Shown piece after piece: positions 3,912 to 26,691 of a DNA stretch of 64,000 nucleotides. A model generated the notes under the pieces. The model did not search any database. It was given only the letters and a program-made list of their open reading frames with translations, and had not been told where the DNA came from. A program made the translations under genes and the position numbers. Location of the stretch: the NCBI RefSeq assembly GCF_026547205.1, contig NZ_CP106877.1, positions 636,001-700,000 on the forward strand, written 5' to 3'. How positions within the stretch are numbered: the stretch's first letter is position 1; every line of letters begins with the position of its first letter. This DNA comes from Fervidibacillus halotolerans. Lineage in GTDB: Bacteria > Bacillota > Bacilli > Bacillales > Caldibacillaceae.

Positions 3912-4008
3912 ATGAGCTTCTATAAAAATAGAAGAAAATCATTTTCCTTTCACACATATATGAAAAGAATAGGAAATGGAAGGATTAAGAAATAGAAGGG
4001 AGGAAAAT

Positions 4009-4206
4009 ATGTTTAAGAGTCGTTTTAAATTTGAATTGAAATGACCAAGATTGTTCTTGGAGACCGTACGATTTATAGATCCATTGACGGAACGAAGGGC
4101 ACGATTAAACATTCCAATTTTTGTCCAAAACGTTATACATAGGAAGAAACAAAAATATTATTGATCCGTTATAAAACGTTCAAGGGAAGAAGAGTCTTTT
4201 TATTTT
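4009..4206 (+). pseudogene. short remnant with a strong ribosome binding site
   Basis: GAAGGGAGG at 3995-4003 leads to an ATG at 4009, but the frame (MFKSRFKFELK) stops after 11 codons. An overlapping frame continues FIDPLTERRARLN and stops near 4171. A good start signal followed by immediate frame breaks suggests a decayed gene rather than a functional peptide. The family was not recognised. Confidence 0.25.
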
Positions 4207-4221
4207 AAAGGAAGTGAAATC

Positions 4222-4863
4222 ATGGGGAAAAGGAAAACGAAGTATTATGTAGTCTGGGTAGGGAAAAAGACAGGTATTTTTTCATCTTGGGATGAATGTA
4301 AACAACATGTATTAGGAGTATCCGAAGCAAAGTATAAGTCATTTTCATCTTTGGAAGAGGCAAAACAAGCTTACCATAATGGTTGGGAGAAATACTACGG
4401 GGTTTCAAAGGAGAATAAACGATCGCAACAAATAGCTGTTCCGGAAAATAAGGAGAAGACATATATTGAAGAGAGTATATGTGTAGATGCGGCATGTAGC
4501 GGGAATCCCGGACAAATGGAATACAAAGGAGTATACACGAAAACTGGAAAAGTATTGTTTCACTACGGCCCGATTCTTGGAACAAATAACATTGGAGAAT
4601 TTTTAGCAATCGTTCACGCCCTATCCTTTTTAAAGAAGTATAGAAAAGATAATCCGATTTATTCAGACTCCGTAACAGCGATGAAATGGGTGAGAGCGAA
4701 AAAAGCAAATACTACCTTAATTAGAAATAAAGATACCGAACGGGTATGGAAACTTATTGAAAGGGCAGAACTATGGCTCCAAACGAACGACTACAATAAC
4801 CCAATTCTTAAATGGGAGACAGACATATGGGGTGAAATTAAGGCGGATTTCGGGCGGAAATAG
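4222..4863 (+). CDS. rnhA: ribonuclease H (viroplasmin-type N-domain plus RNase HI domain)
   Basis: The 213-residue protein cleaves RNA in RNA-DNA hybrids. Residues 5-55 form the caulimovirus-viroplasmin hybrid-binding domain (KYYVVWVGKKTGIFSSWDEC). Residues 82-213 are the RNase H fold. All four metal ligands are present: D89 in CVDAACSGNPG, E126 in TNNIGEFLAIVHAL, D149 in IYSDS, and D209 in KADFGRK. The layout and C-terminus closely match the well-known Bacillus halodurans enzyme, with a slightly longer linker. AAGGAAGTG precedes the ATG. Mrr follows 83 bases downstream on the same strand. Confidence 0.9.
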   Translation: MGKRKTKYYVVWVGKKTGIFSSWDECKQHVLGVSEAKYKSFSSLEEAKQAYHNGWEKYYGVSKENKRSQQIAVPENKEKTYIEESICVDAACSGNPGQMEYKGVYTKTGKVLFHYGPILGTNNIGEFLAIVHALSFLKKYRKDNPIYSDSVTAMKWVRAKKANTTLIRNKDTERVWKLIERAELWLQTNDYNNPILKWETDIWGEIKADFGRK

Positions 4864-6227: not shown

Positions 6228-8288
6228 ATGGCAAACAACCGAAAACCAAACCAACTGATCCATGAAAAATCCCCTTATCTTTTGCAACATGCGTATCAAC
6301 CTGTCGACTGGTATCCATGGGGGAAAGAAGCCTTTGAAAAGGCAAAAAGGGAAAATAAACCACTACTTGTGAGCATCGGCTATTCAACTTGCCATTGGTG
6401 TCACGTGATGGCCCGTGAAACCTTTGAAGATGAAGAAGTGGCAAACATATTAAATGAACGGTTTGTGGCGGTAAAAGTTGATCGGGAGGAGCGCCCGGAC
6501 ATTGATTCCATCTATATGAAAGTATGTCAAATGCTCACCGGTCAAGGAGGTTGGCCCCTTCACGTATTTATCACACCGGATCAAAAACCGTTTTATGCCG
6601 GTACGTATTTTCCAAAGGAGAGTCGTTTCGGTCGTCCAGGGTTTGTCGATGTGTTGTTACAATTGTCTCAAATTTATCACCATGAACAAGAAAAGATCGA
6701 AAAGACGACAACAAGAATTGTGGAAGCAATCCATCAAAAGGCGAACCGAAATAAAAAAGGGGAGCTGAAATCCTCAGTTCTTCATCAGGCATTCCATCAA
6801 CTATCCAATCTGTTTGACCCAATTTATGGTGGCTTTGGTCAAGCACCGAAATTTCCCACACCGCATATGTTACAGTTTTTACTTAAATATTACGTATGGA
6901 CAAAGGATGAACATGCCTTATATATGGTGAATAAAACACTTATGCAATTGCGTAAGGGAGGAATTTGGGATCATATTGGCTTTGGGTTTTCAAGATATTC
7001 GACAGATCCCATGTGGTTAGTTCCCCATTTTGAAAAAATGTTGTATGATAACGCCCTTTTACTGTATACATTTTCAGAGGCTTATCAGCTGACAAAAAAT
7101 CCACAATATCAAAGGATTGCCGAACAAATCATTACATTTATTGGAAGGGATATGCAACATGAATCGGGTGCTTTTTTTTCTGCAATTGATGCAGATTCCG
7201 ATGGGGAAGAGGGGAAGTTTTACGTTTGGACAAAACAGGAAATCATCGAAATTCTCGGGCAAGAACTCGGTGAAACCTTTTGTCACGTGTACGGTATAAC
7301 GGAAGATGGGAATTTTGAAGGGAAAAATATACCGAATCTAATTTTTACGAATAAAGAAAAATTGGCAAAATACAATCAAAAATCGTTGAAAGACCTCGAA
7401 TGGAAACTGGAACAAGCGAGGAAACTCCTTTTAGAAAAACGAAGTCAAAGACCGTTCCCCCTTGTGGATGATAAAGTACTCACTGGATGGAATGCTCTCA
7501 TGATCGCTGCCCTTGCAAAAGCTGGAGCGGCTTTCGATCAGGAATCCTATATCCAAATGGCGAAAAGGGCGCTCGATTTTATCGAGCATCGGTTAATTGT
7601 CGATGGAAGGGTCATGGTACGTTATCGGGATGGTGAAGTGAAACAAAAGGCGTTCATCGACGAGTATGCATATCTTCTTTGGGCGTATATCGAAATGTAT
7701 GAAGGGACATTTGATATAACGTATTTGCATAAAAGTAAACAACTTGTAAAAAAAATGATGGATCTTTTTTGGGATCAAGAAAGTGGTGGCTTTTTCTTTA
7801 CAGGTACTGATTGTGAGACAATGCTTGTTAAAGAAAAAGAAATTTATGATGGTGCACTTCCTTCAGGAAATAGTGTAGCGGCTTTTTCCTTTTTGAAATT
7901 GAGCAGACTAACAGGGAATATAGATTTATATAAAAGAGTTCAAGGAATGTATTCTGTATTTAAGGAAGAAGTGGAACAAAACCCAATTGGTCATACCTTT
8001 TTCTTACAAACTATTTTAATGGAACAATTTCCACCAAAGGAAGTTGTCATTATTGGTTCGAAACATTGTAATAAAAGAAAGAAATTATTGAAACAAATCC
8101 AGCAAGCGTATACTGTTAACCTATTTTCATTAGTAGTGGAAGATCCAAAAGATTTGGAACAGGTGGCTGAATTTGCCAAACATTATCGTCCAATCAATGA
8201 AAAAACGACGGTTTTTATATGTGAAAATTTTGCCTGTCAACAACCAACGACCAATATAGAAGAAGTTCGTACATTCTTGAACGTATAA
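6228..8288 (+). CDS. yyaL: thioredoxin-domain protein YyaL (SPATA20 family)
   Basis: This 686-residue protein has the DUF255 thioredoxin-like domain at residues 5-165, with the family motif [11 protein letters not shown] and the redox pair C55-H-W-C58 in [17 protein letters not shown] six-hairpin (alpha/alpha) glycosidase-like or epimerase-like toroid then fills residues 200-680. Length and order match Bacillus subtilis YyaL and human SPATA20. The molecular activity is not established. AAGGAGGTG 8 bases before the ATG gives a strong site. It is followed 239 bases later by the pseudouridine kinase gene, with its own promoter-like sequence in between. Confidence 0.9.
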
Positions 8289-13379: not shown

Positions 13380-14003
13380 TTACAAATCCAATAGTTTATA
13401 TTTTTGAGCCATCTTCAGCCATTCGCTTTTATTTTTTGTACCGAGTTTTTTGCTAATGCTTCGTCTATGGTTTTCCACAGTTCGAATACTAATATGCATC
13501 GTTTCTGCGATTTCCTTTTGTGTATATCCTTTTACCGTTAGAATGAAAACTTCCTGTTCCCTGGGTGATAAAGGAAATTTCCAATTGTCATCTTCTTTTA
13601 TCGGTTGATTGGTATACAATTTTCCATTAACAATTTTCTCCCCTTTAAGAATCGATTGAAGGTAATGAATAATTTCATCGCTTTTGAATCGTTTCACTAA
13701 ATAACCATCTGCTCCGTATTCCATCGCTTTCATTTGGTATTCCACTTCATCGTACATGGAAAAAATAACGATTTTTGCTTTCGGTAGAATGCCTCTTAAT
13801 TCTTTTAACGTTAGGAGACCGTCCAGTCCATCTGGCATGGAAAGATCCAGTAAAACGAGATCGAAGGAATTTTGAAATGCCTTTTGAATCGCCTCTCTAC
13901 CTTCTGATGCAAATTTGAGCGATTGAATAGGGAAGGCATCTTTTAATAAGAGCGCCAGTCCTTCACGAACAATTTCATGGTCATCAACGATTAATACATT
14001 CAT
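13380..14003 (-). CDS. NarL/LuxR-family response regulator
   Basis: The 207-residue protein has a receiver domain (residues 1-120) with the acidic pair D7-D8 and phospho-acceptor D53 in LVLLDLSMPDG, and a C-terminal LuxR HTH (residues 143-200: LSPREQEVFILTVKGYTQKE followed by IAETMHISIRTVENH). It overlaps the kinase gene by four bases and is surely its partner. Its target genes are not visible. The downstream ABC operon has its own promoter 130 bases away. Confidence 0.93.
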   Translation of the reverse strand: MNVLIVDDHEIVREGLALLLKDAFPIQSLKFASEGREAIQKAFQNSFDLVLLDLSMPDGLDGLLTLKELRGILPKAKIVIFSMYDEVEYQMKAMEYGADGYLVKRFKSDEIIHYLQSILKGEKIVNGKLYTNQPIKEDDNWKFPLSPREQEVFILTVKGYTQKEIAETMHISIRTVENHRRSISKKLGTKNKSEWLKMAQKYKLLDL

Positions 14004-15028
14004 TCTTTAATCTCCTTTCTAATTGTAATAAATCCTTCCACTCGAGTGGGACCCCCTATTTCTGTTATCCACTTTATATCGCCCTCGAGCATTTTTACCC
14101 GTTCCAACATATGTTGCATGCCGAGTCCGTGGCCTTTCGAATGTTGTGGATGGAAACCACTCCCATTGTCGGAAATTTGGAAATAGATGTTTTCATCGTC
14201 AATGGTTCCGTAAAGTTCAATGGTAATTTCAGTCGCTTTTCCGTGGCGGACGGCATTTGTTACCGCTTCTTGGATGACTCGAAAAAGATGCAATGAACTT
14301 TCGTTATCCAATTTATCTTCATTGAGTACGTTATATTTTATATGAAAATTCACATGATAAAGCTTTTTCCAGTCGTCAATGGATGAACGTAAAGCCGCTT
14401 CGAAACTTAAATAATCGAACATATTCGGTCGCAAAATTTTCGTTAACGATTGGATATTTTCGACCGTTTTCTCCATTACCGAATATAATTTTTCTAGTCG
14501 TTCGCTTTTTTTCTCATCATCGATTTTCCGTTTTAATAAATCTAATCCTAGAAAAATACTGTAAATATTTTGCCCAATATGGTCATGAAGTTCCCGTGCA
14601 ATTCGTTTTCGTTCCATTTCTTGCGCTCGAATCGTTTCGTGTATTAATAACTCTTGGGTTTTTACTTTTTCAAGATGACTTTCCAAACTCGGATTGGATA
14701 TTTGGAGTACTTGATACGTATTTTCATCCATTTTCAATTTGGTCATTGACATGTCGAAATCCGCATCTGAATCCACGTAATTTGGCATATGGGAACGAAA
14801 GCTGGGCAATGGATTGTCGCTAGCGAGAATGCATCGTTCCTCTCCCTCTTGGACTTGTCGCAATTGGCAGTAGCTACAATAGGGAACGTTTCCCCCCTTT
14901 TTCCATCCAGTAATTTCAATCGCCTTTTGATTCATATAATGAATTTTTCGATTTTGATCCATGATGACGATACCGATGGGGAGTTGGTCGATTACTTGTC
15001 GAAAGTTCGTTCTGTCCATTTTATTCAC
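14000..15028 (-). CDS. PAS-domain sensor histidine kinase (NarX/DesK type) with a Cys cluster
   Basis: Cytoplasmic, with no transmembrane helix. Residues 8-112 form a PAS domain (FRQVIDQLPIGIVIMDQNRK). It carries C51-x2-C54-x11-C66, a spacing like the first three of the four Fe-S ligands in the oxygen sensor NreB; the fourth Cys is missing (A69 at that place). Residues 130-200 hold the HisKA_3 helix with the phospho-His in RELHDHIGQN (H148). The C-terminal HATPase has NAVRHG and DNGSGF. Redox or metal sensing is plausible. The sulfide:quinone oxidoreductase lies just upstream on the same strand. Ligand and Fe-S binding are not shown. Confidence 0.88.
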   Translation of the reverse strand: MNKMDRTNFRQVIDQLPIGIVIMDQNRKIHYMNQKAIEITGWKKGGNVPYCSYCQLRQVQEGEERCILASDNPLPSFRSHMPNYVDSDADFDMSMTKLKMDENTYQVLQISNPSLESHLEKVKTQELLIHETIRAQEMERKRIARELHDHIGQNIYSIFLGLDLLKRKIDDEKKSERLEKLYSVMEKTVENIQSLTKILRPNMFDYLSFEAALRSSIDDWKKLYHVNFHIKYNVLNEDKLDNESSLHLFRVIQEAVTNAVRHGKATEITIELYGTIDDENIYFQISDNGSGFHPQHSKGHGLGMQHMLERVKMLEGDIKWITEIGGPTRVEGFITIRKEIKE

Positions 15029-15462: not shown

Positions 15463-16884
15463 TTATTCTGGAATGAAACTCCAACCGGGATTACCTTTCA
15501 TTTTATAAATAAACATCGTGTGTAGCGTTCGTTTAATCCATGCGCCAGCAAGTCCGATTTCTAAACCGGATGCTTTTAAATCACGTCCGTAATCTGGATA
15601 TCTTTCATAATCTGGTACGACAGGATACATGATAATCGATGCGGCAGAACCGTTCCAAATCGATTTTCCAATGGAAGCGATACAAGCGCCGGGCATTTCT
15701 GCCATCGATTCCTTATGACTAGGCTCCCTTCCTTCAATCATATCTACGATGTTTAGGGCTGCAACTTTACCAATGATACCCGAAGCCATTCCCGTTCTAG
15801 GAAGTGTAGCGGTAATGACTGTTCCATTTTTCGTCGTGTGAGGCTTCGAAACAGATCCAGGTGGTGCAAAGGCAATCCCTGCTGCAAACATATTTTTGTA
15901 ATAGGGGGATTGATACGTCCTCGGCCAATCGGATGCCTTTAACTCTTCCCAAGGTTTTCCGTAATTTCCGTCCACTTTTAAAAACCCTGCCGGATTGGTT
16001 AGTCGATCCGTTATATCCTGTCCATCCTTATCGATATATTTAATTTTCGTTCCTTTAAATTGAGGGATCAGCATCGCAAAATCAAATTCCGTTTCGCCAA
16101 ATTCACCATCGTAATTTTCCCAGTACACTTTTCCTTTTTCTACTTTTTTCACGGCTGTCTGTACTTGATAGTAAATATTTTGTTCTGCAAAAAGGGATTT
16201 CATAAATTGTTCCGATTTCATAATGTAACCGTGTTTGGAAGCGCATACACCGCCAACCCCAAGATCTCCCAACTGAGGTTCATTGGAAATCCACATAATT
16301 TTCGCCCGATCCCGTAATCCACGTTTAACAAGATCGTTATGAATATTCGTAATGTATTCAAGGGCAGCACCTTGGCACGTTGCTTGTCCGTGTCCTGTTC
16401 CGACTAATATTTTTACTTTTTCACCTTTTTCCATTCGTTTTACTTGTTCTAAATATGCATCTCGAGCAAGTTTTGCGTGATGAATATTACAAATGGAATG
16501 GCTATTTCCTTCATCAGGACCTAATCCTTCTGTCCCTTCAAAATTTAAATGGGGTCCTGTTGCGTTAATCACATAATCGTAATCGACCTTTTGAATTTCT
16601 CCATCCTTTGTTTCAATCGTAACATATTGATCGTCTGGATGAATGGATCTTGCCCATGCTTGGATGAAATTAATCCCCTTTTTCTGTAATACAGGTGCAA
16701 GTTCAAACATCACTTTTTCCGGTTTCATCCGGTCGATACCTACCCATACGAGGGAGGGAATGTAGGTGAATCTCGGCCATGGACTGATCATCGTAACATT
16801 ATGTTTAGCACCGAGTTTCTTTTTTAAGTAAAGGGCGGCGGTTTGACCGGAAAATCCAGCTCCGATCACTACTACTTTTGCCAT
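15463..16884 (-). CDS. sqr: sulfide:quinone oxidoreductase (FAD-dependent)
   Basis: A membrane-associated flavoprotein that oxidises sulfide to polysulfide or persulfide and feeds the quinone pool. The 473-residue sequence has the FAD motif VVVIGAGFSGQTAA at the N-terminus and a second dinucleotide region near GTGHGQATC. Conserved Cys candidates for the persulfide shuttle are C132, C170 and C401, with C214 nearby. The C-terminal amphipathic tail (WIKRTLHTMFIYKMKGN) is typical for membrane binding. The ATG at 16884 follows AAAGGAGAG; an upstream in-frame extension lacks a site. A related FAD oxidoreductase cannot be excluded, but the Cys pattern favours SQR. Confidence 0.82.
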   Translation of the reverse strand: MAKVVVIGAGFSGQTAALYLKKKLGAKHNVTMISPWPRFTYIPSLVWVGIDRMKPEKVMFELAPVLQKKGINFIQAWARSIHPDDQYVTIETKDGEIQKVDYDYVINATGPHLNFEGTEGLGPDEGNSHSICNIHHAKLARDAYLEQVKRMEKGEKVKILVGTGHGQATCQGAALEYITNIHNDLVKRGLRDRAKIMWISNEPQLGDLGVGGVCASKHGYIMKSEQFMKSLFAEQNIYYQVQTAVKKVEKGKVYWENYDGEFGETEFDFAMLIPQFKGTKIKYIDKDGQDITDRLTNPAGFLKVDGNYGKPWEELKASDWPRTYQSPYYKNMFAAGIAFAPPGSVSKPHTTKNGTVITATLPRTGMASGIIGKVAALNIVDMIEGREPSHKESMAEMPGACIASIGKSIWNGSAASIIMYPVVPDYERYPDYGRDLKASGLEIGLAGAWIKRTLHTMFIYKMKGNPGWSFIPE

Positions 16885-16914
16885 AAATGCTCTCTCCTTT
16901 ATTCGATAGATTAA

Positions 16915-16930
16915 ATACCACATAGGGTAT
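16915..16930 (-). promoter_or_regulatory. candidate CsoR/CstR-like operator before sqr
   Basis: ATACC-ACATAG-GGTAT (16915-16930) is an inverted repeat about 30 bases upstream of the sqr start. Its ATACC...GGTAT arms resemble operators of the CsoR/CstR family, and CstR senses persulfides in other Firmicutes. No such regulator is encoded in the window. Confidence 0.4.
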
Positions 16931-18403: not shown

Positions 18404-18895
18404 TTATGAAAAAAGATTGATCGGAGGAAGGCAGGAAATGGAGCAGAAACAGGAAGGGTCCACTTTTATATATATTCCTGTTCGATATAAATCTTTTACA
18501 TTTTCACAATCGATTTGTTCGTATGGATTACATGCTTCCATTGAACAACTACAATCATCTTCATGTTTGAAAGCTAACAATTCTAAAATGGCACAATCCT
18601 TTTTCAATCCTTTGATTCGAAATAGAAAGGTTGTAAAGCAGTGGTATTTTACTTCATTGCAACATTTGCACCGAAATGTCGTTACCCCATCGGATTTAAA
18701 TGGACATCCGTCCTTCGTATACAGGATAAAGGGAATTGTATTTTTTCGCTTTACACTCGGATTTAACAATTCGTTAATCGCAACTTCGCAACCATTTTTA
18801 CAAATTTCTTCACTTTCCCTTTGATACTGAAGGATTTCCTTTAATGTATCCCTTACACATTCGTAACAACTGATCGGGGAATTTTTCATTTCCAT
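18404..18895 (-). CDS. CotY/CotZ (ExsY) family spore coat protein
   Basis: A Cys-rich (18 Cys in 163 residues) structural protein of the outer spore coat/crust. It follows the CotY/CotZ template throughout: a Cys-anchored helix CYECVRDTLKEILQYQ, then CKNGCEVAINELLNPS, the diagnostic TIPFILYTKDG, FTTFLFRIKGLKKDCAILELL, and the C-terminal IYIKVDPSCFCSISCLPP. CotY-like proteins self-assemble into disulfide-linked lattices around the spore, made in the mother cell. GAAAGGAGTC precedes the ATG. The next upstream minus-strand gene, 142 bases away, is another Cys/His-rich putative coat protein. Which paralogue (CotY or CotZ) cannot be decided. Confidence 0.88.
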   Translation of the reverse strand: MEMKNSPISCYECVRDTLKEILQYQRESEEICKNGCEVAINELLNPSVKRKNTIPFILYTKDGCPFKSDGVTTFRCKCCNEVKYHCFTTFLFRIKGLKKDCAILELLAFKHEDDCSCSMEACNPYEQIDCENVKDLYRTGIYIKVDPSCFCSISCLPPINLFS

Positions 18896-19037
18896 AGACT
18901 CCTTTCGTTGCTTCCCTTTTTCAAATTAGACCGGATTTTCCGGATCATTCATTTTGAAAGAAGGAAGATTTATTAAACAATTGACAACATGAATGTGAAT
19001 CGGTGCGAAGGTAAGTGGCACAAGTAATCATATCCGA

Positions 19038-19436
19038 TTAGAAAGAGTCGATCCAATCGTTTCTATTTCGACATTTCCGTTTGGCGTCACAATGACAATG
19101 GCAATCACATCGTCGTTTTTTGCATTTTTTCTTATTGCAGTCAATCTTTTTATGTTTTTCTTCCATTAGGAGAATCATCACGATCTCTTTTAATATGATT
19201 TTTCGAAGGGTTTGATCAATGAATTCGAATAGTTGTAAAAGAGCCTTTTCGTCTTTATGGGAGGAGTTTTTAATCAGCATCGCTTCGGCTTCGAGGACTT
19301 TGGCTAGGGATTGTTCCATATTTGCAATGGATTTGATAAAAGAATGGTGATCGCTTTTATTCCTGTGCTTTAGTAGTGATTGATCTTCTAAGAAATCATC
19401 GAACAACTGACTTGGTTGGCGTTTTCGTTCGTTCAT
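19038..19436 (-). CDS. putative spore-surface protein with ME-LA/KEI helical module and Cys/His tail
   Basis: The 132-residue product has a helical module (FIKSIANMEQSLAKVLEAEA and later LRKIILKEIVMILLMEEK). The module resembles that of the two other small proteins of this locus (23007-23186 and the end of 24703-25404) and the helical segments of Bacillus exosporium collagen-like proteins. The C-terminus is basic and Cys/His-rich (KKKCKKRRCDCHCHCD), suiting metal binding or disulfide cross-linking. GAGGTG precedes the ATG. A sporulation-type -10 lies upstream and the CotY/Z gene downstream. The coat assignment rests on context and composition. Confidence 0.6.
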   Translation of the reverse strand: MNERKRQPSQLFDDFLEDQSLLKHRNKSDHHSFIKSIANMEQSLAKVLEAEAMLIKNSSHKDEKALLQLFEFIDQTLRKIILKEIVMILLMEEKHKKIDCNKKKCKKRRCDCHCHCDAKRKCRNRNDWIDSF

Positions 19437-19468
19437 CCCATTTCACCTCAAAAAACTGGAATCATTGT

Positions 19469-19497
19469 ATTGTATGCTTGGTGAAATAAGAACGTAT
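19469..19497 (-). promoter_or_regulatory. candidate sigma-E-type promoter
   Basis: On the minus strand CATACAAT (19476-19469) matches the sigma-E -10 consensus. ATA (19497-19495) lies 18 bases upstream in place of the -35, slightly long for the class. It sits 33 bases before the putative coat gene. Confidence 0.4.
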
Positions 19498-19727
19498 AAA
19501 CGGTTACCCCACATTTTGCAATGTCTTTCTTTACTGTCAAAACTCGAGTTTTTTTCACACATATATTGTGAATCATTCGGTTCTATAGAGAGGAATTTGC
19601 TGCAAACGATTGAATCAAATTGGCTTCTTGAATCCCTTGCTAGGCAAAATCGATGTAGGTGTCTAAAACGATCGGTTCGAATCATGGGATTTCTATCATT
19701 TAAAAAAGGAAGCCGACGGGAAAATAT

Positions 19728-20618
19728 TTAGAAGGGGATTCCAAATTTATTCATAAACCAATCGTCATCATACGTTCGTTTTTCAAAATATCTTTTTCTT
19801 TGTTCCAGCACATCACTTTTTAATAGTTCGCGAATGATTTGGTCTGGATTGGAATGTTTGATCTGTTTTTTACATTTTTCGATTCTTTTTTCATTAAAAT
19901 GACTATAGGCCATTCGCATGAAATTGTAATATACATCATCCCACGTGAAATGAAATGGAACCTCACTTCCTTTACGGAAAACGTGCTGAATTTTGACGTG
20001 GGGAATGACTGCACAACGATAGCCGAACAACCAAAGTTTCAAAGATATTTCATCATCATTTCTTCCCCAAACGCGAAACCCCCGATCAAAACCGCCAATA
20101 TCATCAAAGGTACTTTTTTTCATTGCTAAGCATCCTGCAGCTAAAAGGGGAGATTCAAACATTTTCCGTTTTGGTCCGTTCCATTTCACCTCTAAATTTT
20201 CGTTCCACGTATACCCATAGCCAATTGCTTGAGGATTTTTCGCGTTGGCAATTCCCGGATTCGTCGCGTCTGCCAATTTTTTTTCAATGGGATACAGTAG
20301 GCGATCGATCCAATACGGTTCAAAAAAAAGATGGGCATCGCAAAAGATGACGAATTTTCCCTTCGCCCGTTCAGCCCCAATATTCCTTGCCATCGCAACC
20401 CCCACATTGTCAGTAAACAAAACGTGAATCCGTTCGTCTTTATTCTTTCTTAGAAAATCACAACATCCGTCTGTTGAATGGTCATCGACGACAATGACTT
20501 CAAATGGGTATCGGGTTTTTGATTCAAATAAAGATTGAATGGTATTTTGAATATGAATACCTTCATTTTTCACGGGGATAATGATTGAAACGAGACCTCT
20601 TTTTTGTTTTTGATTCAA
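19728..20618 (-). CDS. family 2 glycosyltransferase resembling polypeptide GalNAc-transferases
   Basis: The 296-residue GT-A enzyme has SIIIPVKNEGIHIQNTIQSL, a VVDDHST nucleotide site, and the metal motif D94-A-H96 in FVIFCDAH. DxH is typical of eukaryotic polypeptide N-acetylgalactosaminyltransferases. It also has the matching acceptor region GGFDRGFRVWGRNDDEISLKLW and HVFRK (residues 212-216). The TTG at 20618 is the likely start because AAAGGGGGAG lies 5 bases upstream; an in-frame TTG at 20651 has no site. It is the third of three minus-strand glycosyltransferase genes in a spore-surface locus. It probably glycosylates a coat protein or starts a glycan; donor sugar unknown. Confidence 0.8.
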   Translation of the reverse strand: MNQKQKRGLVSIIIPVKNEGIHIQNTIQSLFESKTRYPFEVIVVDDHSTDGCCDFLRKNKDERIHVLFTDNVGVAMARNIGAERAKGKFVIFCDAHLFFEPYWIDRLLYPIEKKLADATNPGIANAKNPQAIGYGYTWNENLEVKWNGPKRKMFESPLLAAGCLAMKKSTFDDIGGFDRGFRVWGRNDDEISLKLWLFGYRCAVIPHVKIQHVFRKGSEVPFHFTWDDVYYNFMRMAYSHFNEKRIEKCKKQIKHSNPDQIIRELLKSDVLEQRKRYFEKRTYDDDWFMNKFGIPF

Positions 20619-20662
20619 AAGGACTCCCCCTTTTCCGTTCACTAGTTTCAATTACTAATGGA

Positions 20663-21592
20663 TTAATAAGATTGTAAAATATCCTCAACCATCTTTACGA
20701 ATTGTTTCACCCTTACTTCCGTGGAATGGTTTTTGCGTATAAATTCATAACCTTCGTCGGTAATCCTTTGTCGTTCTTTATCATTCTTCAAGTAATATTC
20801 AGCCTGTTCGAGGAAATTCGTTTCATCGATGGCGACAAAGTTTTTACCTGGGATAAAGCCTAAATCACGGAGTTCGTTACTATATGGAGCAAGCAGTAAC
20901 GTTTTACATGCGGGAGCTTCGAAATATTTTAAAATCGGATATTGGAAGATGGAATCACAAGTAAAAAAGATCTTTGCTTTGTTCAATTCCCTAGCATATC
21001 TTTCCCTTACAAAACCTTTCTGTTTTTTATCCATATATCGGGATGGGGGAGGCGGATGGTAGGTAAAGTTCGGATTATCTTTCAACGTTTCTTTTATTTT
21101 ATATCGAAGGGGATAGATCGATTTACTAATGGTTCCCATCATCAATAGATCGATTTCTTTCTTTTGATTGTAATCTTTATATAGATCCGTCGGTACATGC
21201 TGGGGTAACCATTTCATTCGATCGGAAAGTTCAGGAAATCGCCGATAAAAACTGTCTCGATAAACGGAAAAAATATGTTGTACATTGTCTTCCTTTACAG
21301 CCTTTCGAAATTGGTGGAGGTTGTGCAAGTCCATGACATAGACGCCAAAAGGGATGTGTAACGAATTTAATCCAGTAATTGGGGGACAAATTAACGGGTT
21401 AGACCGATAGTACATAATTAATATAAAATCCGGTTGAACTCGAAGTTTTTTTAAAATTTCATGGATGTTTCCCTCATTATGCCAAATGACAAGGTTTGTT
21501 ATTTTAGCCAATTCTCGTGCGAAATAATATTGTTTCGGGTTGTTCCACTTACGAAAATCACGCATAATTAATAGCAAATTCAATTTTTTCAA
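20663..21592 (-). CDS. CgeB-like glycosyltransferase
   Basis: The 309-residue product has a GT-B layout: an N-terminal Rossmann half (LNLLLIMRDFRKWNNPKQYY) and a C-terminal half with FFTCDSIFQYPILKYFEAPACKT, then the donor-site acidic region and the helix LRDLGFIPGKNFVAID. The C-terminal block resembles the glycosyl transferase family 1 domain of the spore maturation protein CgeB. It lacks signal or membrane segments. A 207-base gap with a hairpin separates it from the upstream GT4 gene. The GT2 gene starts 44 bases after its stop. It probably builds a spore-surface glycan; substrate unknown. Confidence 0.75.
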   Translation of the reverse strand: MKKLNLLLIMRDFRKWNNPKQYYFARELAKITNLVIWHNEGNIHEILKKLRVQPDFILIMYYRSNPLICPPITGLNSLHIPFGVYVMDLHNLHQFRKAVKEDNVQHIFSVYRDSFYRRFPELSDRMKWLPQHVPTDLYKDYNQKKEIDLLMMGTISKSIYPLRYKIKETLKDNPNFTYHPPPPSRYMDKKQKGFVRERYARELNKAKIFFTCDSIFQYPILKYFEAPACKTLLLAPYSNELRDLGFIPGKNFVAIDETNFLEQAEYYLKNDKERQRITDEGYEFIRKNHSTEVRVKQFVKMVEDILQSY

Positions 21593-21714
21593 ATTCTATT
21601 CGCCTTCCTTTGTTTGTGAGTAGGGAGGGGATCTATTTCTTACAACATATCTAAATATGTTCTTTTGAATCAAATTGAACAAAGTTTAAGGAATAAATGA
21701 AAGCAGTGGGGAAA

Positions 21715-21751
21715 TTAGATTACCAATGATGTTTTTCAATGGCTAATCTAA
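21715..21751 (-). promoter_or_regulatory. hairpin in the gap between two glycosyltransferase genes
   Basis: TTAGATTA plus CCA on one side pairs with TGG plus TAATCTAA on the other (21715-21751). The downstream run is only TTTCCCC, so it is a weak terminator at best and may attenuate or stabilise the transcript. Confidence 0.4.
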
Positions 21752-21799
21752 CATTTAAACCGTTGCAAAAAAATGTTCCCATTCTTTCCAACAAACTTC

Positions 21800-22681
21800 T
21801 CACGCCCAGTTTTTAACAATGGTTTTTCGAATTTCAATGGCCATTTTTTCTTTTACACTTTGATGGCGCATGATATATTGGATTGCTTTTCGAAATGCTG
21901 CAGGAGTTCGATCGACAATCATTCCGTTTTGATATGATTTGATAAGTTCAGGAACAATTCCCACTTTTGTTGAGATAATCGGAACTCCGCATGCAGCGGC
22001 TTCAAATACAGGTAGTGGTATGTGTTCTGATCGGCTTGCACAGAGAAAACAATCAAGCCCTTGATAATACGTAATCATTTCATCTCGGGAAACGAAATGT
22101 TCTGTTTTTGTACGGATATCAAGTTTCACCGGGAGGCCTAATAATGCTTTTTCAACAATATGATAACCTTTCAATTCGTTATCTTTTGATGATCCAACCC
22201 ATCCAACGGTGAAAACGGGATTCTCCTTCCGTTGCTTTAACGGTTTGAATTGATGAATATCCACACCGACCCGAGTTTTATGAACTGGACGATATCGGCT
22301 GAAACGTTCGACAAATTCATCACTAGCTGTATTGACTGCCCTTAGTCCCTTGAAAAACTGTAAAAATTTTTTTGACAATTGTTGATTTTGATTTTGGAAA
22401 AACCGAAATTGCCTTTCAGATGAGATGCCTGCTACGAGTTTATTCAAGGGGATTCCTTTCTGATAAAGGGAATGGGCCATAATCACCGCCATCGGATAAA
22501 TAAATTCGTACTGGTTCGCATCTTCCTTTTGTACTTCATGTTGATATTTTATATCTAATTGAACCCGGTTAGAGGGCATGGCCATCATATCCCGAGCATG
22601 GTGATCAAACGCCCAACCTGGTACATCTGGAACGAGTAATATTTTTCGAATATTTTCCCTTTCCTTTGTCATCCTCTTCAT
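21800..22681 (-). CDS. family 4 glycosyltransferase (GT-B)
   Basis: The 293-residue protein begins KILLVPDVPGWAFDHHARDM and carries the GT4 catalytic signature in its C-terminal half: VGWVGSSKDNELKGYHIVEK followed by EHIPLPVFEAAACGVPIIST, the E-x7-E nucleotide-sugar site. No membrane segment. It is the first gene of the minus-strand glycosyltransferase group and is 325 bases from the terminator of the dehydrogenase operon. The sequence SSERQFRFFQ in the acceptor half is not diagnostic. Acceptor and donor are unknown; a role in spore-surface glycan assembly follows from neighbours. Confidence 0.82.
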   Translation of the reverse strand: MKRMTKERENIRKILLVPDVPGWAFDHHARDMMAMPSNRVQLDIKYQHEVQKEDANQYEFIYPMAVIMAHSLYQKGIPLNKLVAGISSERQFRFFQNQNQQLSKKFLQFFKGLRAVNTASDEFVERFSRYRPVHKTRVGVDIHQFKPLKQRKENPVFTVGWVGSSKDNELKGYHIVEKALLGLPVKLDIRTKTEHFVSRDEMITYYQGLDCFLCASRSEHIPLPVFEAAACGVPIISTKVGIVPELIKSYQNGMIVDRTPAAFRKAIQYIMRHQSVKEKMAIEIRKTIVKNWA

Positions 22682-23006
22682 CCTTTGCTATCCTTTTGTC
22701 TCGCTAGTTTATACTATTCAGTGGGTATAAGTTGTTGCAGTTCATTATCCCAAATCAAAGGAAAAAAGGCGGAAAATAAACGGTCTGATTGCGATCGATT
22801 CAAATAACAATTTTTTTCGATGAAAGATCTGTTCGTTGGAATCGATTTTGTTTGGCGAGTTCTTTCTTTAAGAGTAAAAAAAGGTGTCTCAACCCCCGAA
22901 AAGGGAAGGGAAAAGACACCTGAATATGGAGAACATAGTCATCATTCCTTTGAGCAAAAGTTCGATATAGGAGATAGATATTTATACATGTTTTTCTATT
23001 ATTTCA
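22682..23006 (-). other. intergenic region between two minus-strand units
   Basis: It contains the terminator of the dehydrogenase operon (22874-22921) and presumably the promoter of the glycosyltransferase group nearer 22700. A plus-strand open frame at 22820 has no start signal and crosses the terminator. Confidence 0.4.
22874..22921 (-). terminator. terminator of the UDP-sugar dehydrogenase/small coat protein operon
   Basis: Minus strand AGGTGTCT (22921-22914) pairs with AGACACCT (22889-22882), followed by TTTTTTT. Confidence 0.8.
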
Positions 23007-23186
23007 TTACTCTAAAGATAGAGCTTCATCTAATAGCAACTCTAAAATAATTTCTTTTTTTATAATTAAGCGTAAGATTGCTTCGATTTGCTCCGGTGTA
23101 CCATAAGCATTCGCTGCTTCTAAAGCTGCAGCCAACGCCCCTTCCATTTGTGCAATTGCGTCGATTAAATTTTCCTTCCCATTCAT
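23007..23186 (-). CDS. 59-aa ME-LA/KEI helical module protein, spore-surface candidate
   Basis: This short gene starts at an ATG preceded by AAGGAGAG, 16 bases after the stop of the dehydrogenase gene, and ends before a terminator. The product is almost only the helical module: LIDAIAQMEGALAAALEAAN, then YGTPEQIEAILRLIIKKEII and LELLLDEALSLE. It matches the C-terminal 50 residues of the Thr-Pro-rich coat protein at 24703-25404 (I-x2-ME-x-ALA-x2-L, YG, LII-x-KEI-x-L-x-LL). It may be a docking or oligomerisation partner of that protein. No function is known. Confidence 0.75.
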   Translation of the reverse strand: MNGKENLIDAIAQMEGALAAALEAANAYGTPEQIEAILRLIIKKEIILELLLDEALSLE

Positions 23187-23202
23187 CAGTTTTCTCTCCT
23201 TT

Positions 23203-24465
23203 TCATATAATCGAGTTGTTTGGAGTGGTAGACTTAAACTTTTTTAATGCATTTTTCGGATCGATAACCTTTCTTGCATGTTTCAAAATGAATTCGTACG
23301 GAAGCATTCGGTGATCGGTTAAGATTAATGTGCAATCCGACTCCTTTAATTTTTCCTCTGAAATGGTAGAGGAGTGGAGAAGGTGATTTTCAATATGAAT
23401 AAAAGGAACATACGGATCATGGTACGTGATGGATGCTCCTAATTTGACCAAACGCTCAATGATTTCTATCGCTTTTGATTCACGAATGTCATTCACATCC
23501 CTTTTATACGTAACGCCGATGATAAAAAGCTTTGATTTCGATAACGGTTTGTTTAAAGCTGCTGTTACTTTATGAATGATGTAATCAGGCATTTCCTTGT
23601 TGATCATTTCTGCACTTTCAATCATGGTCAAACGTTTTCCAATCATCTCTGCTTTCCATCTCAAAAAAACAGGATCGACAGGAATACAATGTCCTCCTGC
23701 ACCAATACCCGGTTCAAAAGGTGTAAAGCCAAAGGGTTTTGTTTTACATGCTTCAATGACTTCCCACGGATCGAGATTCATTTTTTCACACAACATGGCC
23801 ATTTCATTAATAAATGAAATGTTGATCAATCTTTGTGCGTTTTCGATCAGTTTTGCCATTTCAGCAGCCTTCGGACTGGATACTGGAACGATTTTCCGAA
23901 AGACGGTTCGATACAATGATTGCGCCTTTTTTGTACAAACATCGGTTACCCCTCCGATGATTTTTGGAATCTCTTCAGGCAAATATGTTTTTTGTCCCGG
24001 ATCGATTCGTTCGGGAGAATAGGCTAAATAAAAATCTTTACCGACAATAAATCCTCTGCTTTCAATTTTAGGCATAATGATTTCTTCTGTCGTTCCCGGA
24101 TAAGTAGAACTTTCTAAAATCATCAGTTGATCTTTGTTTAAATAGGGTAAACAGGAACAGACGGCTTCGTCAATGTAAGAAATATTTGGTTCTCCTTCTT
24201 TTGTCAAAGGAGTCGGAACACATAAAATGATTGTTTCTGCCTCTTTTACAAAAGAAAAGGAAGAATCGACATGGAAACGGTTCGATGCCCGAATCGATTG
24301 AAGATCGTCACTTTCCACATCACTGATAAAACTTTTTCCTTGTTTGATTAAATTGATTTTATTTTTGTCTGTATCGATTCCATAGACGGTGTGTCCTTTT
24401 TTATGAAATAAAAGTGCCAAGGGTAAACCGACGTAGCCTAGACCGATAATGGCGACTTTTGCCAA
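23203..24465 (-). CDS. nucleotide-sugar dehydrogenase (UDP-GlcNAc/ManNAc 6-dehydrogenase type)
   Basis: An NAD-dependent four-electron oxidation of a UDP-hexose(amine) to the uronate. The 420-residue protein has the N-terminal NAD motif GLGYVGLPLAL, the middle AYSPERIDPG and ENAQRLINISFINEMA helices, the catalytic C260 in GIGAGGHCIPVDP, and a C-terminal UDP-binding domain with VTYKRDVNDIRESKA. GHCIPVDP and the overall pattern fit the TviB/WbpA group better than UDP-glucose dehydrogenases. Start is TTG 24465 after GAAGGTG; a longer frame to 24603 is unsupported. It probably supplies an acidic sugar for the spore-surface glycan. Confidence 0.85.
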   Translation of the reverse strand: MAKVAIIGLGYVGLPLALLFHKKGHTVYGIDTDKNKINLIKQGKSFISDVESDDLQSIRASNRFHVDSSFSFVKEAETIILCVPTPLTKEGEPNISYIDEAVCSCLPYLNKDQLMILESSTYPGTTEEIIMPKIESRGFIVGKDFYLAYSPERIDPGQKTYLPEEIPKIIGGVTDVCTKKAQSLYRTVFRKIVPVSSPKAAEMAKLIENAQRLINISFINEMAMLCEKMNLDPWEVIEACKTKPFGFTPFEPGIGAGGHCIPVDPVFLRWKAEMIGKRLTMIESAEMINKEMPDYIIHKVTAALNKPLSKSKLFIIGVTYKRDVNDIRESKAIEIIERLVKLGASITYHDPYVPFIHIENHLLHSSTISEEKLKESDCTLILTDHRMLPYEFILKHARKVIDPKNALKKFKSTTPNNSII

Positions 24466-24611
24466 ATTGAGTTCACCTTCTTTCTTGGTAAACAATATAT
24501 GGACATCGACATGTGAGGGAAACGGCGAAAGCGGAAGGGAAGATAGGCATGTTTTTAACGGGATGAAAAGATTAGTGAAAATAGGGAACCTCCCTATGAC
24601 CATTCGTCCAA

Positions 24612-24638
24612 ACCCCTTTTTGGAAAGGACATATTTTG
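24612..24638 (+). promoter_or_regulatory. sigma-K-type promoter of the Thr-Pro coat protein gene
   Basis: AC (24612-24613), exactly 16 bases, then CATATTTT (24630-24637) fit the sigma-K consensus AC-N16-CATAnnnT, the late mother-cell factor that drives coat genes. It lies 65 bases before the start codon. Confidence 0.6.
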
Positions 24639-24702
24639 TATTGAAGGGACAGATTTATAGGGGAGATTGCTTGAAAAAACGGAAAAAGAAGGAGAGTGAC
24701 AT

Positions 24703-25404
24703 ATGGTTTGTAATGCGACATTAACCGGTTCCGTAGAGGGATTCCCCTTATCTGCAACCGTGACCACAGAAGTGATCAATAGTGGTCAAAGTATTCGGTT
24801 TGAAGTGACGAATTTGACGCCTGGAACGTTAATTGATGAGTTTTTTATTGAGTTGGATGGCCCCTTTTTGAATGGATTAATGATGGGGATTGGAACGGAG
24901 GAGGATTGGTATTTCGAGTCAGACCCGGACTTTATAACACCTGCTTCCTGTGGCCAGTTCCGTTACAAATTTGGAACGAATGTACCGGACGCGAGGATTG
25001 CCTTTAATCAAACGGCTACCTTTTTTTTAGCAGCACCGATTCCCGGGACGTTTACAGAAGATGTACTAGATGGAGAACAGGCATGTGTTCGTGTTCAACA
25101 AGTTGGACCAAACGGGGAATTAAGCGGATGCGCCTGTGGTCCGTACAATTGTCTAGAGCCGACTCCAACCCCCACACCGACACCAGCGCCCACACCAACT
25201 CCCACACCTAGTCCACCTATATTGGATTGTCCAATGATGGAATCCATTATCGATATGGAAGCTGCCCTAGCAGAAACGTTAAATATCTTTGTACAGTACG
25301 GCGATTTGGATGCCTTAACGAGAGTAACGAAATTAATCATCGAGAAGGAAATTTTACTAGGATTGTTAGCGAATCGATGCTCCCAAATGGAAGAAGATGG
25401 ATAG
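24703..25404 (+). CDS. Thr-Pro-rich spore-surface protein with C-terminal helical module
   Basis: A 233-residue, three-part protein. Residues 1-150 are a predicted beta-sandwich (SIRFEVTNLTPGTLIDEFFI and similar alternating strands) with six Cys in all and no signal peptide. Residues 153-172 are a TP/AP repeat (PTPTPTPTPAPTPT), a mucin-like, potentially O-glycosylated linker. Residues 178-225 are the ME-LA/KEI module shared with two neighbours. AAGAAGGAGAG precedes the ATG, and a sigma-K-like promoter lies upstream. Absence of a secretion signal fits mother-cell synthesis and assembly onto the spore. Adjacent sugar genes suggest it is the glycosylated product. Confidence 0.7.
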   Translation: MVCNATLTGSVEGFPLSATVTTEVINSGQSIRFEVTNLTPGTLIDEFFIELDGPFLNGLMMGIGTEEDWYFESDPDFITPASCGQFRYKFGTNVPDARIAFNQTATFFLAAPIPGTFTEDVLDGEQACVRVQQVGPNGELSGCACGPYNCLEPTPTPTPTPAPTPTPTPSPPILDCPMMESIIDMEAALAETLNIFVQYGDLDALTRVTKLIIEKEILLGLLANRCSQMEEDG

Positions 25405-25668
25405 GATGAATGTAAATAATTTAGTGAAGATGTATAAAAACGTTGAACCTTTGCAGCCTTTTATATGATTTTTTGAGAGAAAAGTTGACGGCTTATGGAA
25501 TGTGATAAAAATTGGTGATCAGTTCAATTAGGCGGACATGCAAACATCATCATTTTAAAATGATCAATTTTGACAAATGAATTTGTTTTAAAAAAGTTTC
25601 CATACACGTGGATGTATATAAAAAATTCCAACCATTACAAAGAAAGCTAAGAATTTGGAGGAAATCTC

Positions 25669-26691
25669 ATGGGAATCATCGTAACGGGTTGTGCGGGTTT
25701 TATCGGGTTTCATTTAACGAAGCGTTTACTGAAAGATGGAAATTGGGTAATCGGCATCGATAATATGAATGATTATTATGATCCTTCTTTAAAGGAGAAA
25801 CGATTAGCTCAGCTTTTACCCTATGAAACATTCACTTTTTTTCAAATAGATCTAGAAAATAAAAAAGGTTTGGAAAACATATTCGATACATTTAAACCGG
25901 AAGTCGTCATTAATCTCGGAGCCCAAGCAGGTGTTCGGTACAGTTTGGAAAATCCACAAAGTTATATTGACTCCAATATGACCGGATTTTTAAATATTTT
26001 AGAAGAAAGTAAACGATTAAAAGTCAAACATTTGATTTATGCTTCCTCTAGTTCGGTATACGGATTGAATAAAAAGATGCCTTTTCGAACGAGTGATCGA
26101 GTTGACCATCCGATTAGTATCTATGCTGCAACGAAACGGGCGAATGAATTATTTGCCCACGCCTATAGTTATTTGTACAATTTGCCAACGACTGGACTTC
26201 GTTTTTTTACTGTTTATGGGCCGTGGGGAAGGCCGGACATGGCATTGTTCCGTTTTACAGAGGCAATCTTTCAAGGAGAGACAATCCAACTGTATAATTA
26301 TGGAAATATGAAAAGGGATTTTACTTACATCGATGATATTGTGGAAGCGATCGTACGATTGATTCCTCAAGCCCCAGTCGAAAGAAAAGAAAAGGAATTA
26401 TCAACTTCACAGGTCAGTGTCGTCCCATTCCGCTTATACAATATCGGTAATAATCAACCGGTGAAATTAATGGAATTGATTCATGCAATTGAAGAATATT
26501 TGGGTAAAAAAGCAATAATCCAATATTTGCCTTTGCAACCAGGGGATGTACCGGAAACATATGCGGATGTCGATGATTTGTATGAAACGATCGACTTCCG
26601 TCCCAAAACATCTGTCAAAGAAGGGGTTCGTAAATTTATCGACTGGTATTTGGAATTTAAAAGGGAGAAGAACATCGATCGTAACGACTAG
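25669..26691 (+). CDS. NAD-dependent sugar epimerase, UDP-glucuronate 4-epimerase-like
   Basis: The 340-residue extended SDR has the N-terminal NAD motif TGCAGFIGFHL and catalytic Y-x3-K in SIYAATKRANE preceded by the Ser of ASSSSVYG. Family residues NMNDYYDPSLKEKRL and FTVYGPWGRPDMA are typical of UDP-glucuronate/UDP-glucose 4-epimerases. It would convert the uronate made by the neighbouring dehydrogenase to its galacto form. TTGGAGG precedes the ATG. Plus-strand, 264 bases after the Thr-Pro coat gene, and followed by a terminator-type hairpin at 26847. Confidence 0.82.
   Translation: MGIIVTGCAGFIGFHLTKRLLKDGNWVIGIDNMNDYYDPSLKEKRLAQLLPYETFTFFQIDLENKKGLENIFDTFKPEVVINLGAQAGVRYSLENPQSYIDSNMTGFLNILEESKRLKVKHLIYASSSSVYGLNKKMPFRTSDRVDHPISIYAATKRANELFAHAYSYLYNLPTTGLRFFTVYGPWGRPDMALFRFTEAIFQGETIQLYNYGNMKRDFTYIDDIVEAIVRLIPQAPVERKEKELSTSQVSVVPFRLYNIGNNQPVKLMELIHAIEEYLGKKAIIQYLPLQPGDVPETYADVDDLYETIDFRPKTSVKEGVRKFIDWYLEFKREKNIDRND

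Follow-up and report, generated by a model that had tools for sequence, protein, structure and literature searches.

In a 64,000-nucleotide stretch of the Fervidibacillus halotolerans genome (NZ_CP106877.1, positions 636,001–700,000; hereafter the window, to which all coordinates refer), a cluster of spore-coat and sugar genes probably directs the mucin-type O-glycosylation, in the mother cell, of a spore-surface protein, a reading that we hold with a probability of roughly 0.6. Its centrepiece is a glycosyltransferase (19728–20651, hereafter the enzyme) which, in sequence and predicted fold, resembles the enzymes with which animals initiate mucin glycans; the proposed acceptor is a protein with a Thr-Pro tract (24703–25404, hereafter the Thr-Pro protein). 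The reading is based on homologies, a predicted fold, motif conservation, the proximity of the enzyme gene to Thr-Pro coat-protein genes in several genera and the enrichment of sigma-K-like promoter boxes across relatives. From these we infer the activity of the enzyme, its acceptor, the sugar, the extension of the chain, the location and the assembly of the product. Genomes and gene loci of relatives are denoted by our labels G and L.

The GalNAc-transferase-like enzyme

A phmmer search of solved structures with the enzyme gave polypeptide N-acetylgalactosamine (GalNAc) transferase 2 as its best rows (E = 8e-19). Of the 47 rows of a search with a profile built from 16 orthologs, the first 14 are polypeptide GalNAc-transferases (best E = 8e-29), and a bacterial chondroitin synthase, a polysaccharide polymerase, is the next-best relative. 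Two other glycosyltransferases from enzyme loci, used as controls against the same structures, returned no GalNAc-transferase among their 21 and two rows. Orthologs were found in 19 of 259 genomes of the order at E ≤ 1e-50; the alignment holds 16 of the 19 sequences, those of L115, L116 and L118 being left out while their genus keeps three rows.

The AlphaFold2 model of the enzyme has a predicted local distance difference test score (pLDDT) of 90.8 and a predicted template-modelling score (pTM) of 0.88. GalNAc-transferases fill all of the best 50 rows listed by Foldseek, and VIA-align 2 matched the model to residues 132–438 of human GalNAc-T2 (6nqt) with a Z score of 32.0 (2.4 Å, 282 residues). 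The first 29 of the 50 entries listed by the latter program are GalNAc-transferases (Z of 27.6–32.0), followed by an entry at 23.2; the fold match to chondroitin synthase has a Z of 20.5, against 32.0 for the GalNAc-transferases. Residues D105, A106, H107 and H223 do not vary across the 16 aligned sequences, and D105, H107 and H223 align to the same letters in GalNAc-T2, in which the D-x-H and second His letters bind the metal. Polypeptide GalNAc-transferases favour Thr near Pro.

No lectin domain was found in the enzyme, which has no Pfam match for one and whose alignment ends at GalNAc-T2 residue 438; nor was a signal or membrane segment noticed by eye in its 307 residues. A C-terminal ricin-like lectin domain is given as a GALNT feature in PMC4202792. 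Because this domain is absent, the enzyme is filed here as GT27-like and not as a GALNT. Its likeness to the polypeptide GalNAc-transferases (CAZy family GT27; human GalNAc-T2) covers the sequence of the catalytic domain, the predicted fold and the D-x-H and His positions, whereas it differs in being only 307 residues long and devoid of the lectin domain.

The Thr-Pro protein and its homologs

Residues 153–172 of the 233-residue Thr-Pro protein have the sequence PTPTPTPTPAPTPTPTPSPP, which contains seven Thr and one Ser, in agreement with the first-pass annotation of this DNA, which had reported a PTPTPT tract there. In the 2.94-Mb genome a DNA pattern encoding (Thr-Pro)4 is matched a single time and its reversed form not at all. 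The protein gave nothing meaningful in Pfam or NCBIfam, only weak rows among solved structures (best E = 0.14) and no match in viral contigs or plasmids; the collagen-like G-X-Y repeats of a BclA-like glycoprotein are absent from the 233-residue sequence. Its single-sequence AlphaFold2 model did not have the quality needed for a fold search (pLDDT 47), with helices at residues 179–199 and 202–232 predicted at low confidence.

Homologs of the N-terminal domain occur in four of 397 genomes of the order, its own included. The G243 homolog has its domain, linker and module arranged alike (26% identity, E = 4e-10), the G079 homolog matches the N-terminal domain (31% identity, E = 3e-11) and that in G040 is a weak, partial match (E = 2.2e-4). 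G319, tried as a further genome with this domain, was rejected (E = 0.004, internal stops, not kept by the profile). The linkers of these proteins are Thr-Pro in the window, PPLTTKFPPVTTTQVPPVTT in G040, PPPPPP in G079 and Gly/Asn in G243. The two genomes with Thr-rich linkers have the enzyme gene and the other two lack it at E ≤ 1e-20, a pairing that cannot be taken as a rule from four genomes. Assignment of the C-terminal domain of the G040, G079 and G026 proteins to SPOCS was also rejected: only the G040 protein matches in Pfam, below the cut-off (21.8 versus 23.6), so that the label coat-type is tentative for the G026 and G040 proteins.

Enzyme gene and Thr-Pro coat proteins in relatives

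The (Thr-Pro)4 pattern was scanned in 21 genomes, namely the 19 with the enzyme together with G079 and G243. Four genomes have a single match apiece, each no further than 6 kb from the enzyme gene, and the other 17 have none; the reversed pattern gave three matches, all in G206. Random placement would bring four of four sites near the enzyme gene with a chance of about 2e-10. The shorter (Thr-Pro)3 pattern has 23 matches in 12 of the 19 enzyme genomes versus 18 for its reversed form, so that the number of matches says little and only their places count. Merged by tract, by eye, the 23 matches make 17 distinct sites, eight of which (in seven genomes of five genera) are no more than 13.1 kb away from the enzyme gene, a limit chosen after the sites were seen, where 0.12 would be expected. 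All eight are in frame, in coat-type open reading frames (ORFs) or in the Thr-Pro protein of the window; four of the nine remote sites lie in ORFs of 67–129 residues and five in no ORF of at least 60 residues with the tract in frame. A chance placing of the Thr-Pro tract was ruled out by these two pattern scans.

The Thr-Pro proteins of six relatives (G008, G054, G080, G106, G139 and G184) all carry the BMQ_0737 domain (74.7–89.2 bits, cut-off 71). Directly beside the enzyme gene stand a VTTTPA-repeat protein in G026 and a Thr/Pro-rich protein in G040. On the Cytobacillus spongiae plasmid NZ_CP089998, a record not among these genomes, the enzyme (46% identity) lies about 3 kb from a BMQ_0737-domain ORF with TPTPTPT, in the company of a nucleotide-sugar dehydrogenase and an annotated CotE. 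Members of the BMQ_0737 family of morphogenetic spore coat proteins (NF052457) with Thr-Pro tracts are thus found near the enzyme gene in six relatives and on the plasmid, whereas the Thr-Pro protein of the window is built from another pair of domains. Among the 18 enzyme loci other than that of the window, ten have a coat-type or module ORF (for the module, see below) within about 10 kb and three more have a Thr-Pro coat ORF at 11–13 kb; some of the stretches fetched ended at contig ends. Six of the ten were found by construction because they seeded the profiles, whose seeds include the proteins of L082, L103, L104, L105, L106 and L112 genes. The non-seed proteins of L107, L109 and L111 pass the NCBIfam cut-off, as do those of L103, L105, L106 and G139. 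This recurrence of the enzyme gene near Thr-Pro coat proteins is suggestive, though not proof, of a bacterial counterpart to mucin glycosylation.

A DUF7164 protein is encoded near the enzyme gene in L062 (7409–8260; PF23741, E = 9e-58) and L082 (8155–8988, by eye); it is perhaps a partner of the GalNAc-transferase-like enzyme.

Sigma-K-like promoter boxes

Perfect sigma-K-like boxes stand upstream of seven of 19 enzyme genes (shuffled mean 0.28, one-sided Fisher 0.0009), four of six surface-protein genes (0.17 and 0.0007) and six of 25 module genes (0.47 and 0.018). The controls in the Fisher tests were genes of at least 150 residues from 22 of the same loci, 22 of 278 of which have a box. 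The six surface-protein genes, which either neighbour the enzyme gene or encode the N-terminal domain, are those of L082, L083, L103, L104, L105 and L106, with the genes of G080, G106, G139 and G184 left out; L083 is not in an enzyme locus, and the L083 and L103 proteins have no Thr tracts. The 25 module genes were hand-picked from the loci at hand; L017 1827–1991 is among those left out and two are genes of the wider family described below. In the window, one of the nine upstream regions, that of 19038–19436, has a perfect box, and sigma-E-like boxes are absent from all nine (shuffled mean 0.54).

The sporulation-type promoters reported by the first-pass annotation accordingly hold for this one box and for the enrichment across relatives, and not as an excess within the window. 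The spore setting that it had proposed is backed by CotZ in the locus, by the BMQ_0737 domain on the Thr-Pro proteins of relatives and by the boxes across relatives.

A shared helical-hairpin module

One helical-hairpin module, overlooked in the first-pass annotation together with the 59-residue gene at 23007–23186, is common to the product of that gene, to a 132-residue protein and to the C-terminus of the Thr-Pro protein. The last ∼53 residues of the Thr-Pro protein match the 59-residue protein with 36% identity (pairwise BLASTP, E = 4e-7), and a segment of the 132-residue protein aligns to the module in the family alignment. BLASTP of the 59-residue against the 132-residue protein alone gives no match, so that the kinship of these two rests on the family alignment and on profile searches. 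In its own genome the module profile finds three copies at E ≤ 1, all in the locus; at E ≤ 0.001 it has matches in 25 of 397 genomes of the order and in 14 of 299 genomes of the class, some of them already among the 25. Neither Pfam nor NCBIfam gave a meaningful match to the module.

Strong members are present in nine relatives, including Oceanobacillus, Cytobacillus, Metabacillus and Sporolactobacillus records. In seven of the nine, a long Cys/His/Lys-rich module protein adjoins a short one, which may stand by itself or be fused to other domains; the two are apart in G311 and G243. Module proteins with Cys/His/Lys-rich parts occur in L017, L018, L019, L052, L054, L055, L058 and L060. Two fused module proteins match the proprotein-convertase P-domain (PF01483), and in G243 (L060) the long module protein adjoins a CotZ gene (PF10612, E = 1e-47).

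Compared with solved structures, the module profile matches PDB code 9IHH, entitled 'Ex vivo spore-silk A-ENA fibers', weakly (E = 5.4e-4 over 9IHH residues 31–89), and a member of the wider family matches it with E = 7.5e-25; the Thr-Pro protein by itself gave no 9IHH row. The helix-loop-helix segment of the A-ENA subunit aligns in the profile comparison, whereas the score is weak, the N-terminal stretch of 9IHH (MGMP.IP..) is absent from the 59-residue protein and from the module of the Thr-Pro protein, and the module is here found joined, too, to a display domain or to a Cys/His-rich tail. Because of the missing stretch, we regard the module as probable distant kin of A-ENA and not as a member. 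None of the nine window proteins searched has a Pfam match to the S-ENA or F-ENA domains (DUF3992, DUF4183) at E ≤ 0.1. The literature searched, which excluded most subscription journals and bioRxiv, yielded no paper on spore-silk or A-ENA spore fibres or on the motif string of the wider family.

Several further arrangements of such proteins were observed. In G149 (L020, 8994–10865) a 623-residue protein has three tandem module copies between other domains, one of which matches the proprotein-convertase P-domain, with glycosyltransferases, an epimerase and a UDP (uridine diphosphate)-sugar dehydrogenase within the same 20 kb. In G176 (L062) wider A-ENA-family genes at 3961–4269 and 6687–7031 flank an enzyme gene 61% identical to that of the window, which is a second link between the GalNAc-transferase-like enzyme and fibre-like proteins. 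Three proteins of one genus (L030 1033–1785, L040 1030–1785 and L034 1748–2650) have a wider A-ENA-type domain followed by a beta-like C-terminal extension, judged by eye; display-domain fusion is therefore not confined to the short module. Two 265-residue proteins (L029 1426–2223 and L033 973–1770) have a module-like N-terminus and a long Lys/Glu-rich tail.

Gene complement of the locus

The features of the locus are collected in Table 1. CotZ, three glycosyltransferases, the UDP-sugar dehydrogenase and the epimerase, all named in the first-pass annotation, were recovered by Pfam and NCBIfam searches at the positions given there, the CotZ/CotY assignment with 110.9 bits in PF10612 (cut-off 24). 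The longest ORF of the dehydrogenase begins at 24603 and its start is uncertain. The nearest solved relatives of the epimerase are 5u4q (E = 7e-136), 6zl6 (E = 5e-42) and WbgU (E = 5e-42). Going by the functions of Cap5O (the nearest solved relative of the dehydrogenase) and WbgU, the two enzymes may make UDP-sugars of the uronic or N-acetylhexosamine (HexNAc) type, with the product not fixed. Among the 18 other enzyme loci, the dehydrogenase has a BLASTP match in five (L104, L105, L108, L111 and L117), the PF13524-type glycosyltransferase has homologs of at least 38% identity in two and the GT4-type glycosyltransferase has a homolog (45%) in one.

Table 1. Features of the Fervidibacillus halotolerans locus, in window coordinates
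Feature	Position	Strand	Evidence and remarks
CotZ-family spore outer-layer protein, 163 residues	18404–18895	−	PF10612, E = 8.7e-32
132-residue protein: helical-hairpin module (∼residues 33–95) and Cys/His/Lys-rich tail	19038–19436	−	Module alignment
Sigma-K-like −10 box CATACAATA upstream of 19038–19436	19468–19476	−	AC 17 bases further up (19494–19495)
GalNAc-transferase-like glycosyltransferase (catalytic domain), 307 residues	19728–20651	−	D105-A106-H107, H223; start uncertain, residues 1–15 poorly modelled
Glycosyltransferase, PF13524 type	20663–21592	−	PF13524, E = 7e-17; homologs 52% (L117), 38% (L105)
Glycosyltransferase, GT4 type	21800–22681	−	PF00534, E = 4e-20; 45% homolog in L108
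Stand-alone module protein, 59 residues	23007–23186	−	Homologs of ∼50% identity in other genera
Nucleotide-sugar 6-dehydrogenase	23203–24474	−	TIGR03026, 425 bits; Cap5O, E = 1.1e-64; 52% homologs in L104, L117
Thr-Pro protein, 233 residues	24703–25404	+	No Pfam family, no meaningful NCBIfam match
N-terminal domain of Thr-Pro protein, residues 1–150	24703–25152	+	Mostly beta, low-confidence model
Thr-Pro tract, residues 153–172, proposed O-glycosylation sites	25159–25218	+	
C-terminal helical-hairpin module of Thr-Pro protein, residues 176–230, proposed assembly domain	25228–25392	+	
NDP (nucleoside diphosphate)-sugar epimerase	25669–26691	+	PF01370, E = 3.7e-54

Elsewhere in the window, an FAD/NAD-linked oxidoreductase resembling sulfide:quinone reductases (15463–16923) adjoins a sensor histidine kinase-like ORF (14000–15028); both were named by eye.

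Discussion

We propose that, late in sporulation and in the mother-cell cytosol, the chain would be started by the GalNAc-transferase-like enzyme, with perhaps a HexNAc placed on Thr of the PTPTPT tract, and extended by the other two glycosyltransferases; the dehydrogenase and epimerase may supply a uronic-type sugar for this extension. Through its C-terminal hairpin the Thr-Pro protein would assemble with the 59- and 132-residue module proteins over the CotZ-containing outer layer, so that the beta domain would be held out on a sugar-stiffened stalk. The proposal of the first-pass annotation that the Thr-Pro tract is O-glycosylated by an enzyme of the locus gains support from the kind of enzyme present and from its recurrent Thr-Pro coat neighbours. 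A working precedent, by analogy, for Thr O-glycosylation on the spore surface is the Clostridioides difficile glycosyltransferase SgtA, encoded just upstream of bclA3, which according to PMC7157674 adds O-linked N-acetylglucosamine to Thr of BclA3 peptides. There, as here, a glycosyltransferase gene stands beside the gene of a spore-surface protein, with an O-linked sugar on Thr in that case and proposed in this one. The BclA3 acceptor is collagen-like, whereas the proposed acceptor here is a Thr-Pro linker; the comparison is one of gene setting.

A number of observations weigh against this reading. The gene set is a mosaic that none of the relatives examined retains whole. The first-pass annotation had named a lack of conservation as a unit in any relative as a refutation; by that standard the whole set fails and the pair of enzyme and Thr-Pro protein passes. 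The Thr-Pro protein itself has no BMQ_0737 domain (NF052457 is not among its NCBIfam rows at E ≤ 0.1), the linker of the identically organised G243 protein is Gly/Asn and that of the G079 protein is PPPPPP. A nearby (Thr-Pro)3 site is found in only seven of the 19 enzyme genomes, including two same-genus pairs and hence five genera, with other Thr/Pro-rich linkers in two more (G026 and G040); four of the 17 sites meet a limit of 6 kb in place of the retrospective 13.1 kb. The coat proteins near the enzyme in G141, G053, G004 and G206 (loci including L103, L107, L109 and L111) have the BMQ_0737 domain and no (Thr-Pro)3 match, that beside the enzyme in G141 (L103) having a Pro-rich stretch without Thr, and in five of the 18 other loci the fetched stretch contains no coat-type or module ORF and there is no Thr-Pro site nearby. 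Sigma-K-like boxes with at most one mismatch are not enriched in the window (four versus a shuffled mean of 5.06), and the A-ENA link of the module is weak (E = 5e-4).

The principal competing explanation, which we consider unlikely, is that the enzymes build a crust-like spore-surface polysaccharide, the Thr-Pro tract being a flexible spacer and the GalNAc-transferase-like enzyme acting on a glycan or lipid acceptor. The G079 gene for the N-terminal domain shares 11 kb of sequence with genes for an epimerase and a UDP-sugar dehydrogenase (BLASTP) and for a kinase-like protein, a glycosyltransferase and a uridylyltransferase (by eye), in a genome without a GalNAc-transferase-like gene and with a Pro-rich linker that lacks Thr repeats; the Gly/Asn linker of G243 and the rank of chondroitin synthase in the profile search point the same way. 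The Bacillus subtilis sps, ytdA-ytcABC and cge genes act in crust morphology and surface properties, as stated in PMC7439481. In kind, they resemble the present genes in combining sugar-nucleotide and glycosyltransferase functions in a spore-surface setting; they differ in that CotZ and a GalNAc-transferase-like enzyme belong to the locus here. Against a polysaccharide stand the frequency of Thr-Pro tracts near the enzyme gene, far above chance, the absence of the enzyme from both genomes with non-Thr linkers and the margin by which the GalNAc-transferases exceed chondroitin synthase in the fold comparison.

A spore appendage, in which the 59- and 132-residue proteins would be A-ENA-like filament subunits or anchors and the Thr-Pro protein a tip or side decoration, with or without glycans, is a doubtful though compatible addition to the O-glycosylation scheme. 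The 9IHH matches of the module profile and of the wider family favour it, as does the confinement of all three module copies found in the genome to the locus; in F-ENA fibres the fibre domain is likewise found on anchor proteins, as described in PMC11952670. The window modules, however, lack the ∼30-residue N-terminal stretch of 9IHH, the alignment beginning at residue 31, and the model of the Thr-Pro protein is poor. That ordinary coat and sugar genes came together by chance with no common task would fit a set that no relative keeps whole, and is very improbable given that coat-type or module ORFs accompany the enzyme in ten of the 18 other loci (∼10 kb) and in three further genomes (11–13 kb).

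Going beyond the locus, we tentatively suggest, at somewhat less than even odds, that Bacillaceae relatives possess a true mucin-type O-glycosylation pathway in which a GT27-fold polypeptide HexNAc-transferase acts in the mother cell on Thr-Pro tracts of coat proteins, here on a stalk anchored by an A-ENA-like module. Metazoan-type O-GalNAc glycosylation is said in the abstract of PMC5504323 not to occur in bacteria. Among the matches listed, titles and the beginnings of abstracts in the literature searched revealed no bacterial GT27 or polypeptide GalNAc-transferase acting on spores, and the available sections of PMC4202792, PMC8724618 and PMC13345888 do not mention one. O-glycosylation of the spore surface is already known; a GT27-like initiating enzyme paired with Thr-Pro coat proteins in Bacillaceae relatives is new as far as that literature goes.

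The proposal bears, in a testable way, on the distribution of mucin-type O-glycosylation, and involves one bacterial enzyme without a lectin domain, a proposed acceptor motif and organisms that can be grown. It would supply an acceptor for spore-surface glycosyltransferases that have none, would offer a small enzyme for the production of mucin-type glycopeptides in bacteria and would connect spore-surface display proteins with a helical module for which neither Pfam nor NCBIfam has a model. If it is true, the mucin-like stalks of these spores share an enzyme family with the mucins of animals.

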